From a virus: 26,498 nucleotides of DNA. Shown piece by piece: positions 3 through 10,049 of the stretch. Within the stretch, counting starts at the first letter, position 1. The number at the start of each line of letters is the position of its first letter. The translations under genes and the position numbers were made by a program. Location: positions 1 to 26,498 of the IMG/VR virus record IMGVR_UViG_3300030107_005126; one strand, written 5' to 3'. Under the pieces are notes generated by a model. It was not told the origin of the DNA. It searched no databases and was given only the letters and a program-made list of their open reading frames with translations.

Positions 3-3000
3 GATAAAAAGACTGATGTACCTAAAGCTGAAGGGACTGAGCCTTTATCTACTAGTAAATTTAGAGATACTATAAAAAATGTTGTATTTAAAAGTAAGAG
101 ATTAGCTAGTGACATTAAAGATAGAATATTATTAGCTGCAAAATTAGATGAAAAACTTTCTGTAAGTAAAGGTGGATTTAAAAAAGACTCTAAGCCTTTG
201 GCATTATATGAAGAAAGTAAAAATATTGTAAGAAGTATACTTCAAAATAATTATATAGTTAAGTTTGGAAAGACTGTAAGTGTAGGTAGGTTAGTAGAAG
301 GTACTAGGGATCGTATAAAGCAAATGGACTCTTTTGCAAAGCATTTAGCTAAAAAAGGTAAAAGCTTTAAAGATATGGTAGATGAAGATGTCCAATTATG
401 GTTAGCTGATAATGCTACTCATGTTACTTCTATGCAAGATTTAGTTAAAATTCTTAAAGATAGAAAAATACTTGATAAAAATAAATTTACTATGGGAGAA
501 GGTGATATATCAGCATTTGCTAATATAGGTAAATATAAAGGTAAACCTAGAGAAGGAGTACGAACAAGTAATGAATTTTTTGATACATCTCAAAGGAATA
601 AAATACGATATCAATTAGGGAAGCAGGCAGATTATATTACTAAATTTGTTACTGAAAAAACTAGAGGACTATTAAGAGGTTTAAAAAAGGTAGTAAAGGG
701 AGAATATTTATTTACAGATACTAAAGGAAATGTATTAAGTAATGCAGTCTTAAATCAATTAACTAATAAAGTATTTGGAAATTTAAAGCAAAAAGATAAA
801 GCTAGATTATTTAGAAAGAGCTTATCAACATATGCTCGTGAAAAATTTGGTCAAAATGAATCCACAGCTATATTAAGATGGGTATTAGGAGAGAAGACAG
901 CAGATATAGGTGAATCAAGGATGAGAAAGCTTCAAAAAGCTTATATAGGAGAAGCTTCACAAAAAGAGTTGGCTAATAAAGTTCTTAAAGCCTTTATAAG
1001 AGATGTAAATAGTAAAAATCCTAGTACATTAAAAGATAAGACAACATATAGTCCAAAACAAATAGCAGATGGTTTAAAGAAAATAAAAGGCAATATTAAA
1101 GTAGGGGAAGTAACTGTATCAAAACAAACAGCTGAAGCTCTATTTAATTATATGTTAGAAACTAGTCCTAGGCTTAATGAAATAGTTCCAAGTAAAAAGT
1201 ATTTAAAAGAACGACTAGAGATACAAAAAGAAAAAGAGAAATATGGACTAGATTATAAACAGTTTGAAGCTGGAAAAGGCGAAGCAATAACACAAACCTT
1301 TTTAAATGAAATGCAATCTAAGAATCCTGGACTTGGCAAGATTATATTTGATTATATAGGTAAAAATACAGGCAATAAAAAATATGCAGGTCGTTTTGTT
1401 AATGGTGCTATAGAACTTATAAAAGGTAATTCAACTATACATACATTCTTTCATGAAAATGGTCATAGACTTAAAAAATTCTTAATTGAAATAGGTGATA
1501 CTAAATCTATCAAGTTAATAGAAAGAGCTGAAAAGTCATTTGCTAATTGGGCAAAGAAAAATGATACCAAGAGATGGAATGAATATTACATGAAAAAGTA
1601 TAAAACAGAAGCTAAAGCTAGAGAAGAATATTTTCTAGATAGAATGGCTGATGTTGCTACTAAAAGACAAACTCAAAAAGGATTAGTTAATAGACTTAAA
1701 CAACATGGAGAACTTATATTTTCTAAAATTAAGAATTTCTTAGGACTTGGTAATAAAGAAGATATAGCTAGAATATATGGTGAACAAGTATTTAAAGGAT
1801 TTTCTACTAAAGGAACAAAACTTAAAGGGATAGAGTTTAAACAGACTGAATCTGCGAAAAGAAATAAGATAAACCTTAGAAAGGACATTAAAACATCATT
1901 AGAAGCTCTTAAAATGCCTCTAAACAACGTAAAAATAGTTGCAGAAAGCTTGGGTATAACTTTGCCTGAAGGTAAGCTTAATTTAGGAAAAATTACAGAT
2001 GAAAAAGTATTGCAAGATATCTTTGATACTATTAAAAAGATCACACCTAACAATAAGAAATTAAGATATAGAAGTACTGACATTTTAAAGTTAATGACTA
2101 ATATTGTAACTCTTAATGAAAAGAAAAATGTTTCTCCTAAATTATTTAGAGATACTTTAGAAGCTTTGGGAGTTAAAGAAGGTAAGTTTGAAAATGCATC
2201 TAGAGAAGCTTTGCAAGATTATTTTGCTATTATAAAAGAAAGTAGAAAAGATGCTCCACAAAAAATTAATACTCAAGAGCTTTTAAATATAGAATCAAAC
2301 ACTCAAAAAGCATTTGCATCTTTATCTATATTGAAAAAAGCTTGGATACCTACTACTCATCTATTAAGGAAATATGGTGGTAACCCTGGAAATATAATAG
2401 CAGATAAGATTGAAAAACATAGCTTATTAGAATCACTATACTTAGGTATGGGTGACAGACGTATGCAAGTAGTTAGAAGTATGTATAGAAGTAATAAAGA
2501 GTATATAGATGATTTAAATAGATATTGGATGATGGATAAACAAAGATTAAAAGATATATTAAAAAACCATTCTGAAAAATTATCTTCTAAGGATAAAGCA
2601 TTTATAGAATCATTAAAAGACAAAGATAGTGTTCAATCTAAAGGTGTAAAAATATTCCAAGATTTAATGAAAGATTATTGGACTTCTATTGAAAAAGAAG
2701 CATCTAAATGGAACAATAAAGCTGAAATGGCTGCTTTAAAAGAAAGATTAAATAAAAGCTTTGTAGAAAATTACTTTACAAGAAAAGTTACAGATAAAGC
2801 ATTTAAGATATTGACGGACAATAAAGAAGCTTTAAAGAAAAGTAAATATTATGAAGATAGTTTATTAGAAGGTGCTATAAATAAAGCAATAAAAGAAAGT
2901 AAAAATCAAAACCTTTCAAAAGCAGATATAGCAAAAAAAGCTAATGAAATAATATCAAAGAATAAAGATAATTTTGCAGAAGAATTTTATGAAAATGCAT

Positions 3001-4898
3001 ATAATAGCATTATATATTCATATTCTAAAGTAAATAATCCTCATTTATTAAAACGTAATGTATATTTAGGAGAATATATAGTTGATCCAGTAACTGGTAA
3101 AAAAGTTAAATCATATGAAACTTCTTTTACAGAAACAGGAGACAGGTATATAAGAAAGATGTCTCAATACTTGCCAAGTATAAGGCATTTTGTTGAATGG
3201 ACAGATGTAGGTGGTTCTCATACTGTCCCTAGAGCAAAGTCTTCTATAATGTTAGGGTTAAAAGATAGCAATTTGCTTGGGAAGTACATGGAAACTGCTA
3301 TACATAGGACTATAGGAATAACAGATAGAAGATTAGATTCTAGTATTGTTGGAACATTGCAAAGATTTGGTAGATGGTCTGCTGTCGCAGGTTTGTCATC
3401 TCCTATGTCAGGTATTAAAAACATACATTTAGCTGTTAACCAAATATATGGAAATACTAATTTACGATCTACTGTTCATGGTTTAAGGCAAATATTTAAC
3501 AAGGAAGCTGATTTATATGCTAGAGAAATAGGTGCTATAAGTGAAAGTACAAAATACATGCAATTAAATTCATGGCAAGAAAAACTATTTAAGTTTAACT
3601 TAATGAGTAAAACTGAAAATTGGGCAAGAATAGCATCTATATATGCTAAAAAAATGTACAATGAAGGATTGATTAATCAATTAAGAAATGATAGAAAAGG
3701 CATTTTTTCTGAAAGAAGTAAAAAAATTGCAAGAAGCAAACTTAAAGAATCTGGTATTAATGATACTCAAATAGATTTTTTAATTAACTACGAACCTGTT
3801 AATGCTAATAAAATGGCTAAAAATATGTATTTAGATATACATACTAAATTAGACCAAATGGCACATAGAAAATTGCAAGGTGGAACATCTGTAGGTGAAA
3901 TGCCATTATGGGCAAGTTCTGAGATAGCTAAACCTTTTACATTATTCCAAAGAATGGCATATGCTGCTACTTGGAATAGTTATAGGCATTATTTAAAACC
4001 TATTAAAAAACATGGAAACTTTATGCCTTTAATGAGATATGGAGCTGCTTCTTATCTTAGTGGTGCATCTTTATATTATATGTACGACAAGTTACTTGGA
4101 ATAGAACCACCAAAAACACAAGATGATAGTAAAGTTTTAAATAATGTTATGATGAATTTATGGAAAGCTGAAACATTAGGATTATTCACCGAAACTATTA
4201 ATTTGTATAGTGGTTACAGTCCCAATATGATTCCATTGCAAACTCCTGTAATAGTTAGGCATGCTCAAAATGCAGGTAAACATTTTTTAAAATGGTATCA
4301 TGGCGACAAAACATTTAATATGGCTGCAACTGATTTTAGTAAAGAATATTTAGTAGTTTTAGGTCAAGCTACTAAGTTTATAGAAAATAGTCAACATCCA
4401 TATACTAGAGATGTAAGAAGAATAAATACATTAAAAAGAGTTTTTATGGAAGAAAAAAATCAAGTAGTTCCAAGAACTGAAAAGTATGGATATGATAGGC
4501 TTCCATATTATACAAAGTTTAGAGCTGACTTTTCTAAGGGTGGGAAAGACATGTATAGATCATATTTTTCAGCATATAACTATATAGTTACTGATTTACT
4601 TAAAGATGCTCAAGTAGATAATCCTTCTAGAGCACAAGCTGAAAATGCACATAAAAAAGCTACTTCTATTTTATCAGGAATAATAACAAAATTAAATCCA
4701 AATAATCTTAGTAAAGAAGTTGGAGTAAGGGAAGTGTCTTTAAGGGATGAGTTTTTATTATGGCTTAAACCTAAAAATAAAAAGATGCTAGAAAGATTAG
4801 AAAAAGAGTATTATTTTAAAGTAAGACAGTTAAACACTCAAATTGGTAAAAACTATAAAAGAAGTAATGTATTGCCATATAAAGTAAAATTCAAGTAA
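3..4898 (+). CDS. Giant late virion-type protein with HExxH metallopeptidase motif (5' end outside window)
   Basis: The frame is open from position 3 to the TAA at 4896-4898 with no convincing start, so the N-terminus lies left of the window; 1631 residues are visible. A TTG at 198 is an in-frame codon, not a supported start. HENGH at 1452-1466 is a zincin-type HExxH. An acidic EEYFLDRMADVA stretch about 50 residues later could give a third zinc ligand. The rest is Lys/Glu-rich and helical. Hydrophobic patches lie near 3370-3450 and 4020-4250, the latter after an aromatic-rich AKPFTLFQRMAY region. Very large late proteins with an embedded peptidase are typically internal or ejection proteins of short-tailed phages, or polyvalent proteins injected with DNA. 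That role is inferred from size, late strand and position. Peptidase activity is plausible from the motif but unproven. No lysozyme motif is visible in this part. Confidence 0.85.
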   Translation, partial: DKKTDVPKAEGTEPLSTSKFRDTIKNVVFKSKRLASDIKDRILLAAKLDEKLSVSKGGFKKDSKPLALYEESKNIVRSILQNNYIVKFGKTVSVGRLVEGTRDRIKQMDSFAKHLAKKGKSFKDMVDEDVQLWLADNATHVTSMQDLVKILKDRKILDKNKFTMGEGDISAFANIGKYKGKPREGVRTSNEFFDTSQRNKIRYQLGKQADYITKFVTEKTRGLLRGLKKVVKGEYLFTDTKGNVLSNAVLNQLTNKVFGNLKQKDKARLFRKSLSTYAREKFGQNESTAILRWVLGEKTADIGESRMRKLQKAYIGEASQKELANKVLKAFIRDVNSKNPSTLKDKTTYSPKQIADGLKKIKGNIKVGEVTVSKQTAEALFNYMLETSPRLNEIVPSKKYLKERLEIQKEKEKYGLDYKQFEAGKGEAITQTFLNEMQSKNPGLGKIIFDYIGKNTGNKKYAGRFVNGAIELIKGNSTIHTFFHENGHRLKKFLIEIGDTKSIKLIERAEKSFANWAKKNDTKRWNEYYMKKYKTEAKAREEYFLDRMADVATKRQTQKGLVNRLKQHGELIFSKIKNFLGLGNKEDIARIYGEQVFKGFSTKGTKLKGIEFKQTESAKRNKINLRKDIKTSLEALKMPLNNVKIVAESLGITLPEGKLNLGKITDEKVLQDIFDTIKKITPNNKKLRYRSTDILKLMTNIVTLNEKKNVSPKLFRDTLEALGVKEGKFENASREALQDYFAIIKESRKDAPQKINTQELLNIESNTQKAFASLSILKKAWIPTTHLLRKYGGNPGNIIADKIEKHSLLESLYLGMGDRRMQVVRSMYRSNKEYIDDLNRYWMMDKQRLKDILKNHSEKLSSKDKAFIESLKDKDSVQSKGVKIFQDLMKDYWTSIEKEASKWNNKAEMAALKERLNKSFVENYFTRKVTDKAFKILTDNKEALKKSKYYEDSLLEGAINKAIKESKNQNLSKADIAKKANEIISKNKDNFAEEFYENAYNSIIYSYSKVNNPHLLKRNVYLGEYIVDPVTGKKVKSYETSFTETGDRYIRKMSQYLPSIRHFVEWTDVGGSHTVPRAKSSIMLGLKDSNLLGKYMETAIHRTIGITDRRLDSSIVGTLQRFGRWSAVAGLSSPMSGIKNIHLAVNQIYGNTNLRSTVHGLRQIFNKEADLYAREIGAISESTKYMQLNSWQEKLFKFNLMSKTENWARIASIYAKKMYNEGLINQLRNDRKGIFSERSKKIARSKLKESGINDTQIDFLINYEPVNANKMAKNMYLDIHTKLDQMAHRKLQGGTSVGEMPLWASSEIAKPFTLFQRMAYAATWNSYRHYLKPIKKHGNFMPLMRYGAASYLSGASLYYMYDKLLGIEPPKTQDDSKVLNNVMMNLWKAETLGLFTETINLYSGYSPNMIPLQTPVIVRHAQNAGKHFLKWYHGDKTFNMAATDFSKEYLVVLGQATKFIENSQHPYTRDVRRINTLKRVFMEEKNQVVPRTEKYGYDRLPYYTKFRADFSKGGKDMYRSYFSAYNYIVTDLLKDAQVDNPSRAQAENAHKKATSILSGIITKLNPNNLSKEVGVREVSLRDEFLLWLKPKNKKMLERLEKEYYFKVRQLNTQIGKNYKRSNVLPYKVKFK

Positions 4899-8457: not shown

Positions 8458-8638
8458 TTAATTCCCACCTTTTTTTACCTATTTCTCTTTTGGCACATTT
8501 CTGACAAATACATAATTTTGTATTATATCCCTCAGGATAAAGTTGTTTTAATAGCAACTCATATTCATAATTATGAGTAATATTTGTCTTATTGCACATA
8601 TCACATTTATGGTTATATCTACCTAGATATTTTATCAT
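8447..8638 (-). CDS. Zinc-ribbon-like protein, 63 aa
   Basis: The 63-residue product has two CxxC pairs: CDMC near residues 12-15 and CQKC near 45-48, with an additional Cys (LCIC) next to the second pair. The 29-residue separation fits a zinc ribbon or finger. The start at 8638 has a weak SD (AAAGTTAG) and lies within the 3' end of the PD-(D/E)XK gene (20-nt overlap). Function unknown; a nucleic-acid-binding accessory role is a reasonable guess. Confidence 0.72.
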   Translation of the reverse strand: MIKYLGRYNHKCDMCNKTNITHNYEYELLLKQLYPEGYNTKLCICQKCAKREIGKKRWELNGL

Positions 8639-9068
8639 CTAACTTTATAACTCTTAATGCTGTGCTTTCTATTGCTTCTTTAGGAACTAAATATGCTTTT
8701 TTAGGCTCTGTGTCTCCCTTACCTGTAAAAGTAACTAATTTATATCCTTCTAATAAAATCTTATCCTTTATAATATCTCTTGTAGTCCAAGTTAATTTTT
8801 CTCCATCTGAAAATACCCAATAAGTAGCAGTGCTTGACAATAATCCTGATGGCTTTCCAAACATAAATACTTCTATAACATAATTACCTGTATAGTTAGA
8901 TTTTTGATCTTGCTTAACTTCAACAGTTTGTGCAAGTTCAGGTATAACTATATCATGTTCTTTACAATATCCCTTCACCATGTAAGCTTTAGGATATTTC
9001 TTTTTTATACCTTTAAGTACATATTTTTCAGTTATCTTGCCTTCTTGTAATGACTCATTAAATTCCAT
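8619..9068 (-). CDS. PD-(D/E)XK-family endonuclease-like protein, 149 aa
   Basis: Starting from ATG at 9068, the catalytic pattern is D39 (EHDIVIPE), then E50 and K52 (VEVKQD). E66 follows in GNYVIEVFMFGKPSG, with a downstream ATYWVF strand. This matches small phage PD-(D/E)XK proteins that carry a GN-x-x-IE-x(n)-GKPSG core. These are metal-dependent DNA nucleases or resolvases. An upstream TTG at 9116 also opens the frame, but it lies within the preceding gene and lacks an SD, so ATG 9068 (AAGGA about 11 nt upstream) is preferred. It lies with the recombination genes, so DNA processing is more likely than stand-alone restriction. A restriction role with the methyltransferase downstream is not excluded. 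Confidence 0.77.
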   Translation of the reverse strand: MEFNESLQEGKITEKYVLKGIKKKYPKAYMVKGYCKEHDIVIPELAQTVEVKQDQKSNYTGNYVIEVFMFGKPSGLLSSTATYWVFSDGEKLTWTTRDIIKDKILLEGYKLVTFTGKGDTEPKKAYLVPKEAIESTALRVIKLDDKISR

Positions 9069-9417
9069 TTTTAATACTGTCCTTCTTTTTAAATATTTCT
9101 TTATAATTCTTTTCAAACTTTTTTGACCATCTTACTCTTTGTTTAGAGCCTTTACCATTTAGCAGGGAGGAGGGACTAGCATTAAAAGCTCTTTGCCCTC
9201 CTATATCTAGTAGTTTGACGAATAACTTATTCTGACGAATAATATCTATCACCCTGCTTTCGCTATTTAAAATAAATACCCTATGGGTTGGTATAGGATA
9301 TATATTGGAGTTTTTATCCTGCAACTTCCAGCCAGTAATAGGCAGCGAGAGGAGCAGTTGTGTGGAACGATAAGAATTTATCTTGTTCTTTGCTATACAT
9401 TTTAGTGTGCGATTCAT
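9058..9417 (-). CDS. Hypothetical protein with basic C-terminal GSKQR motif, 119 aa
   Basis: ATG at 9417 follows GAGAGGAG with 8-nt spacing, an excellent SD. The C-terminal third (KGSKQRVRWSKKFEKNYKEI and on to the stop) resembles short basic phage proteins that carry a GSKQR or GSGRR motif, and is probably the conserved core. The first 75 residues are different: the DNA is richer in G and C (about 40% over 9161-9360 by hand count) and full of inverted repeats. The protein could be an N-terminally extended version of the short family, or part of this stretch could act mainly as structured RNA (see 9161-9433). It overlaps the nuclease gene by 11 nt. Function unknown. Confidence 0.6.
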   Translation of the reverse strand: MNRTLKCIAKNKINSYRSTQLLLSLPITGWKLQDKNSNIYPIPTHRVFILNSESRVIDIIRQNKLFVKLLDIGGQRAFNASPSSLLNGKGSKQRVRWSKKFEKNYKEIFKKKDSIKNGI

Positions 9418-9433
9418 GAAACGTACTCCTCTC
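9161..9433 (-). ncRNA. Candidate structured RNA / SD-sequestering mRNA element
   Basis: Many inverted repeats lie in one short stretch. AGCAGGG (9161-9167) pairs with CCCTGCT (9252-9258). AGGAGGG (9168-9174) pairs with CCCTCCT (9196-9202). GAATAA-C-TTATTC occupies 9220-9232. Three hairpins lie at 9276-9294, 9295-9320 and 9331-9343. The SD GAGAGGAG of the 119-aa gene (9426-9433) has a perfect 8-nt complement at 9347-9354, which could hide the ribosome site. TGACGAATAA also occurs twice, at 9216 and 9233. The nested geometry resembles a folded RNA with a three-way junction. The pairings are read directly; their formation in RNA is inferred, and no known riboswitch or intron core is recognised. 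Confidence 0.4.
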
Positions 9434-9443
9434 TATTTTTATT

Positions 9444-10049
9444 TTAAAATGGTAAGTCTTCTAAAACTGTTTTAGTTTTAGCATTTTCCCATACCTTGAA
9501 AGCCTTAGCTTCCATAGAAGTTCTGTTAAGACCATCACGACCTACCCAAGGTTTTGATTTATCTACAAAAGCCATTATAGGTTTTCCTAGCATATCATCT
9601 TTTGATAACTCAGGCAACTTAAATACTTCTGTTTCTTTTCCATCTACTTCCATTTTGGTTTTAGGTAATTCCTCTCCTAAAGCCTCACAGAAATACATAT
9701 AACCAACATTACCTTTTGGATATACTTCAAAGTCATCACCAACTTGTGGATTAAGAAAATAGAATACTCCCATACTACGGAATTTATATCCTACATAATC
9801 TTCACCAGTAACTTCCATATCATTTCCTTGTATATCGTTAATAGTGAATTTTAATCCTTTAACATCATCAGCTACTTGTAATATTGGATTGTATATTTTA
9901 GCTTTATACTTTCCCTTTACTTTAACTGTTTTGACTTGACAATCAACCACATGGCATGGATACCAACCTTTAGCTACAGGATTTTTCTTCCTAGTTTCGC
10001 TTACAGGTACATATCCACCATCTAAATTAATTCCTGATACATCTGCCAT
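9444..10049 (-). CDS. Probable single-stranded DNA-binding protein
   Basis: 201 aa from ATG at 10049 with SD AAGGAG. The central part is strand-rich with many aromatic and basic residues (VKTVKVKGKYKAKIYNPIL, VGYKFRSMGVFYF), as in OB-like phage ssDNA-binding proteins. It ends in a short acidic-hydrophobic tip, LEDLPF, like the C-terminal tip that bacterial SSB uses to recruit partners. It directly follows the Rad52-like annealing gene (1-nt gap) and lies in the recombination block. It would coat single strands made by the exonuclease and helicase. The call rests on the tail, size and context. No exact family name is certain; DUF669-type phage recombination proteins are the alternative. Confidence 0.68.
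   Translation of the reverse strand: MADVSGINLDGGYVPVSETRKKNPVAKGWYPCHVVDCQVKTVKVKGKYKAKIYNPILQVADDVKGLKFTINDIQGNDMEVTGEDYVGYKFRSMGVFYFLNPQVGDDFEVYPKGNVGYMYFCEALGEELPKTKMEVDGKETEVFKLPELSKDDMLGKPIMAFVDKSKPWVGRDGLNRTSMEAKAFKVWENAKTKTVLEDLPF

Follow-up and report, generated by a model that had tools for sequence, protein, structure and literature searches.

A near-invariant 31-nt RNA element, predicted to fold as a pseudoknot, in the early operon of uncultivated tailed phages

The window analysed here is a 26,498-nt stretch of viral DNA (IMG/VR record IMGVR_UViG_3300030107_005126, positions 1 to 26,498), in which an SSB-like gene and a nuclease-like gene, both on the minus strand, flank a gap rich in inverted repeats. 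This gap belongs to the early (replication and recombination) operon of uncultivated tailed phages. The features of the region are as follows, with the parts of the central element given in the order in which they are transcribed.

9444–10049, minus strand: upstream SSB-like gene (cluster c2), so named because of its position and a DDLPF-type tail at the C-terminus; Pfam gave no match
9266–9448, minus strand: possible enclosing stem P0, 9438–9448 with 9266–9276, an 11-bp perfect pairing
9347–9433, minus strand: 5' hairpin, outer stem 9426–9433 with 9347–9354, perfect over 8 bp and predicted in the fold
9307–9337, minus strand: predicted H-type pseudoknot core, carried by 36 distinct viral records (pairs counted on 17 distinct sequences, with 0 of 500 shuffles as good)
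9333–9337 with 9317–9321, minus strand: core stem P1
9330–9332, minus strand: core loop L1, GCU
9327–9329 and 9323–9325 (bulged A at 9326) with 9307–9312, minus strand: core stem P2
9322, minus strand: core loop L2, G
9313–9316, minus strand: core loop L3, UAAA
9276–9301, minus strand: small 3' hairpin, 9293–9301 with 9276–9284, predicted in the fold with the core masked
9161–9258, minus strand: distal 3' stem, 9252–9258 with 9161–9167 and 9196–9202 with 9168–9174, in the predicted fold
9058–9417, minus strand: 119-aa ORF overlapping the RNA, not conserved; its tail, 9058–9162, may be true coding sequence
8619–9116, minus strand: downstream 165-aa gene (cluster c3), nuclease-like by motif only; phrog_13596, no function assigned

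For the downstream gene, the ATG at 9067 is the likelier start. Elsewhere in the window, a 1566-aa ORF (198–4898, plus strand) has no PHROG match.

The original prediction had drawn attention to the stretch 9161–9433 as an inverted-repeat-rich element. The pairings that it named, namely the two nested ones of the distal 3' stem (9161–9167 with 9252–9258, and 9168–9174 with 9196–9202) and that of 9347–9354 with 9426–9433, are all perfect inverted repeats; in the last of these, a Shine–Dalgarno (SD) sequence does have a perfect 8-nt complement, with the arms 71 nt apart and not 72. Of the seven or more perfect repeats that had been counted, only four are of at least 7 nt (12 are of at least 6 nt), and this count of four does not exceed chance (2.15 expected; at least as many are present in 19 of 100 dinucleotide shuffles). 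Three GC-rich inverted repeats in the same stretch do exceed chance (0.085 expected, 0 of 200 shuffles). The folding energy of the minus (gene) strand, a comparison with dinucleotide shuffles having been proposed as a check, gave z = -3.4 with none of 200 shuffles as good, and that of the plus strand gave z = -1.8; the GC content, put at about 40%, was measured as 38.8% vs 30.5% for the window. The centre of the element had nevertheless been misplaced, as both the pseudoknot core at 9307–9337, which is the key element, and the 11-bp pairing of 9266–9276 with 9438–9448 had been missed.

Searches of PHROGs, viral contigs and isolate phages with the 119-aa ORF that runs over the RNA gave a single match, by tblastn, in Ochrobactrum phage ORM_20 (E = 0.2), which we rejected as a homologue and attribute to chance because it lies antisense to an annotated gene and contains an internal stop. 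No ORF of more than 54 codons passes through the core in that frame in the other non-redundant copies. Where the ORF runs over the RNA, its codons score -0.25 vs 0.38 ± 0.17 for gene windows, while those of its tail (9061–9162) score 0.20; the last third of the ORF (9058–9162, outside the RNA), which had been singled out as the part that looks conserved, is thus gene-like in codon usage. This tail (NGKGSKQRVRWSKKFEKNYKEIF) resembles a short GGKGSxxR...NxxxIF protein in locus L204. A conserved frame together with gene-like codon usage, as expected of a protein-coding gene, was not found for the 119-aa ORF. Shuffled sequence would keep one given frame open over the RNA in 0.4% of cases; the RNA may therefore be translated in the phage of the window, where it happens to overlap an open frame.

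It had been suggested that the 5' hairpin hides the SD of this ORF and thereby controls its translation, and the perfect 8-bp pairing, the well-spaced ATG and the low expectation of the open frame all agree with this. We consider it extremely unlikely, however, since an ORF of that size lies over the RNA in the window alone, neither the pairing nor the ORF is kept in any homologue, the codon usage of the RNA region is unlike that of genes, and the ORF has no protein homologue. The SD pair (GAGAGGAG/CUCCUCUC) represents the window's own form of a 5' hairpin that changes in sequence from clade to clade; a hairpin of this type was not seen in L076, L098 and L236.

The 31-nt core of the window (UACUGGCUGGAAGUUGCAGGAUAAAAACUCC, minus strand, 9307–9337) has homologues in uncultivated phage contigs. 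The first of them, L005, came from an ORF search of loci fetched around genes of related phages, and there ACTGGCTGGAAGTTGCAGGATAAAAACTCC matches at the DNA level within a non-coding gap that has stops in frame. An exact 20-mer scan gave 14 viral contigs, to which relaxed scans added further ones; with the window and L028 counted, 36 distinct viral records carry the core (29 non-redundant ones after the removal of near-duplicates), with one copy in each record examined. Across these roughly three dozen records, whose proteins differ strongly, the core is constant nearly letter for letter, and one phage with about 40–50% protein identity has it unchanged within a non-coding gap. It was absent from the GTDB genomes and plasmids scanned, and isolate phages gave only short, insignificant matches. 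Among related phages the distribution is patchy: the core is missing from 50 of the 52 related loci fetched for the Erf-like gene, and is therefore not essential for that type of operon. Mobile DNA was considered and rejected, as the lineages share the core alone, without common ends.

In Rfam 15, the window had no match at the gathering threshold and only chance-level miRNA matches (E of about 0.6), and eight homologous loci had no match at E-values up to 1. Transfer RNA, tmRNA, introns, known riboswitches and ribozymes were rejected on the basis that neither ARAGORN nor Rfam gave a match, and literature searches, whose coverage mostly excluded subscription journals, did not find the RNA described. 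Since no catalogued RNA family matches, it appears to be a new phage RNA and looks like a new RNA family within a known fold class.

The alignment of the core has 31 columns and is gap-free, with G, GCU, the A bulge, GUU and AAC fixed. The letters that hardly vary (CUG/CAG of P1, GCU of L1, the bulged A, the inner GUU/AAC of P2, the G of L2 and the A-rich L3) cluster at the P1/P2 junction, while the outer pairs of P2 and of P1 drift. It is the core that stays constant, within surroundings that vary. In P2, NNA pairs with UNN in many combinations, namely GGA/UCC, GUA/UAC, GAA/UUC, UCA/UGA, UCA/UGG, CCA/UGG, AGA/UUU and GGA/UCU. In P1, all copies have CUG/CAG except L028, which has AAG/CUU within a 5-bp ACAAG/CUUGU; the two outer pairs of P1 are often unpaired across the copies, and the window has one A·G mismatch. 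For the knotted structure, the 17 distinct sequences gave 19 cells changed on both sides vs 6 in shuffles, 6 of the 11 pairs have double-sided changes, and slid pairings collapse.

The covariation of P1 comes mainly from L028, a divergent but syntenic homologue found by a structural descriptor. This copy sits between an SSB-like and a DnaB-type gene, as in the window, and shares enclosing-stem sequence with L215 and L228, so that a chance match is not the explanation. A scan with P1 left free and a covariance-model search (61 loci) recovered only L028 and chance-level matches as further P1 variants; a match in L019 has no proper knot and was rejected as a copy. Because the scans required parts of the core, the CUG/CAG invariance is partly built in, and the true spread of the core, as well as its variation at the required letters, may exceed that seen. 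From these comparisons, the core is best described as an H-type pseudoknot of two interlocked stems, strongly indicated for P2 and indicated for P1 through L028 and single-pair changes. In L082, L079 and L216, one frame of the core reads WLEVAG/WLQVAV-stop, and a 145-aa ORF of L082 ends inside the core. The frame is broken in L215, L228 and L028, and so probably just follows from the sequence of the RNA.

G-U variants occur in P2, which favours the RNA over the DNA level. A folded single-stranded DNA site in the replication module, such as a replication start, might be expected among replication genes and once per record, as the core is, but the G-U pairs among the P2 variants and an orientation that strictly follows transcription make it very improbable.

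The structure around the core differs between clades. In the window, the possible stem P0 would surround the 5' hairpin, the core and the small 3' hairpin; it consists of A-T pairs only and by itself does not reach significance. For the 150 nt 3' of the core, folding gave z = -4.65 in the window and a median z of -2.4 across the copies vs -1.0 for control stretches; the 100 nt 5' of the core showed no unusual folding as a group. In L028, L215 and L228, the enclosing stems (AGCCAUAGG/CCUAUGGCU, AGCCACAAG/CUUGUGGCU and GGUCAUAGG/CCUAUGACC, respectively) covary, with double changes in four of nine pairs as read directly from the sequences. At the place of the 5' hairpin, several homologues have one that differs in sequence; it covaries in six loci (6 of 12 pairs), in an alignment that favours these stems because they were excised and joined by hand beforehand. 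In L005, L087, L217, L219, L225 and L237, the stretch 5' of the core carries a hairpin specific to that clade, AUUCGU..ACGAAU, which has a covarying inner stem and a conserved internal strand, UARAG. The closing stem starts a few nt 3' of the core in L028, L088, L115, L215 and L228, and in L213, L216, L223 and L226 the outer stem encloses the core plus 3' hairpins; the covariation of the flanking stems is within clades. A separate, GC-rich H-type pseudoknot candidate (ACGGU-CU-GGGGCUC-ACCGU-AAA-GAGCCCC) was seen in L062 (3077–3105, plus strand) and also in L064, L065 and L066; it lies in a gap, with a hairpin and then a start codon after it, in an arrangement that resembles that of the main element, and may be a chance occurrence or a parallel element.

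Taken with the non-coding gaps of the homologues and the ORF without a protein homologue, the compensatory changes bear out one option of the original prediction, an unrecognised structured RNA that overlaps or replaces part of a coding region. Conservation at the amino-acid level without compensatory changes, the pattern that would mark the structure as incidental, was not what we found, and the structure is thus not incidental. On the comparative evidence, the element is almost certainly a structured RNA under selection.

In the loci with readable flanks, the core lies between genes of the same direction and is read in the operon sense; in L082 it shares sequence with the final codons of the gene upstream. 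It is located 3' of an SSB-like gene in nine loci and, in twelve, after a gene chain ending in an HNH protein (Pfam HNH) or one gene beyond, with a variable upstream context in the remaining loci, although such counts by gene context are confounded by kinship. Its place is fixed within clades. The immediate downstream genes are diverse and share no function, and no gene is common to all loci with the core. A role as the translational operator of SSB was rejected, as the core does not stand ahead of the SSB-like gene, and 48 of the 50 related loci without the core also carry an SSB-like gene. The nuclease-like c3 family, with motifs such as EVKTERD and SGITTTKADWW, was seen in 9 of the 28 loci that carry the core and in 0 of 63 related loci that lack it, which may only reflect kinship. 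In L228, the next gene, 79 nt beyond the core, is a 274-aa ORF with a match to class II aminoacyl-tRNA synthetases (PF00152, E = 9e-15); such a gene is unusual for a phage and is not common to the other loci.

A decoy that imitates a defence RNA, perhaps the pseudoknot of a type III antitoxin as with the pseudo-ToxI of phage PhiTE, would agree with the patchy occurrence of the core among related phages; ToxI is likewise a small pseudoknot RNA, and phages carry ToxI mimics (PMC3475682). It is nonetheless very unlikely here: the core is a single copy and not a repeat array, its position in the replication operon is fixed within clades, and none of the ten loci tested has a defence-type neighbour. 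The ten downstream genes had no PADLOC match that would indicate a toxin neighbour, although a phage mimic would not need one.

The sense orientation, the fixed operon position within clades and the varied downstream genes fit a cis element on early mRNA with a common factor. As a good possibility that stops short of being probable, we favour an element that would act in cis within the mRNA of the early (replication) operon and be bound by a conserved factor. The P1/P2 junction is probably a recognition surface, since hardly any of its letters change, in contrast to the drifting outer pairs of P2 and P1. These letters would form a compact tertiary fold presenting one such surface. On the polycistronic mRNA, whether nascent or mature, this surface would be bound in cis by a conserved factor, which might be the RNA polymerase of the host or of the phage, an RNase or some other protein that binds RNA. 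Binding would change how the operon transcript is elongated or processed, or how stable it is. The outer stems would serve as insulation, allowing the knot to fold among different neighbouring genes.

The main rival, which we regard as unlikely, is a trans-acting structured small RNA that would be excised from the mRNA of the operon and have its target elsewhere, in a protein or RNA of the host or the phage. T-even phages have structured small RNAs, and a near-invariant core in a variable gene context, stable hairpins on both sides of it and a downstream gene that is not fixed would all be in keeping with such an RNA. However, the core is always in the operon sense and at a fixed place within clades, and the RNA of the window has no promoter or terminator excess of its own.

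Small ribozymes usually have a fixed core with variable outer stems. The same arrangement is seen here, and the fixed junction might be the catalytic centre of a self-cleaving RNA or the small-molecule pocket of a ligand-binding aptamer; the size, H-type topology and A-rich L3 resemble those of class I preQ1 aptamers (PMC11625349). This is quite improbable, as there is no Rfam match even at permissive thresholds, the downstream genes have no common function, and in the compact forms the ribosome-binding site of the next gene is not within the knot.

Returning to the cis-acting element, the constancy of the core between phages at about 40–50% protein identity suggests a strong and specific interaction. 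Tentatively, the element may represent an undescribed class of phage RNA, in which an autonomous 31-nt pseudoknot would serve several lineages as a portable control module, either by recruiting a widely conserved partner (RNA polymerase, the ribosome or an RNase) or by ligand binding or self-cleavage. Should one of these three prove to be the partner, phages would have a further means of steering their early operons by RNA alone. Because the core is short, both its structure and its partner are directly testable. To our knowledge, few small structured RNAs are known from phages, and near-invariant cores are rarer still.

The operator of T4 gene 32 is likewise a pseudoknot in a phage mRNA, located ahead of the SSB gene. 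The core is beside an SSB-like gene in one of its contexts, but it lies 3' of that gene (nine loci) and elsewhere away from it. T4 gp32 is an autogenous repressor (PMC535899). The class I preQ1 riboswitch (PMC11625349) is similar in being a compact H-type pseudoknot with an A-rich 3' tail segment. However, the core has no Rfam match and differs in its loop sizes and fixed letters; it is not ahead of queuosine-related genes, and the preQ1 model does not recognise it. ToxI consists of 36-nt repeats beside a toxin gene, and PhiTE carries a pseudo-ToxI (PMC3475682), a phage-borne small pseudoknot RNA like the core, which differs in that it is present as a single copy per record and forms no repeat array. 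The putL and putR antiterminator RNAs of phage HK022 are of about 70 nt, have two stem-loops without a long-range knot as their hallmark and occur as two copies downstream of the early promoters, where they bind RNA polymerase and suppress pausing and termination (PMC9378689). By its covariation, the core differs from these in being one pseudoknot between genes in place of two stem-loops. Both are small structured RNAs of phage early transcripts that are conserved at the sequence level, and put acts in cis on RNA polymerase, which by analogy is the kind of mode that we propose for the core.
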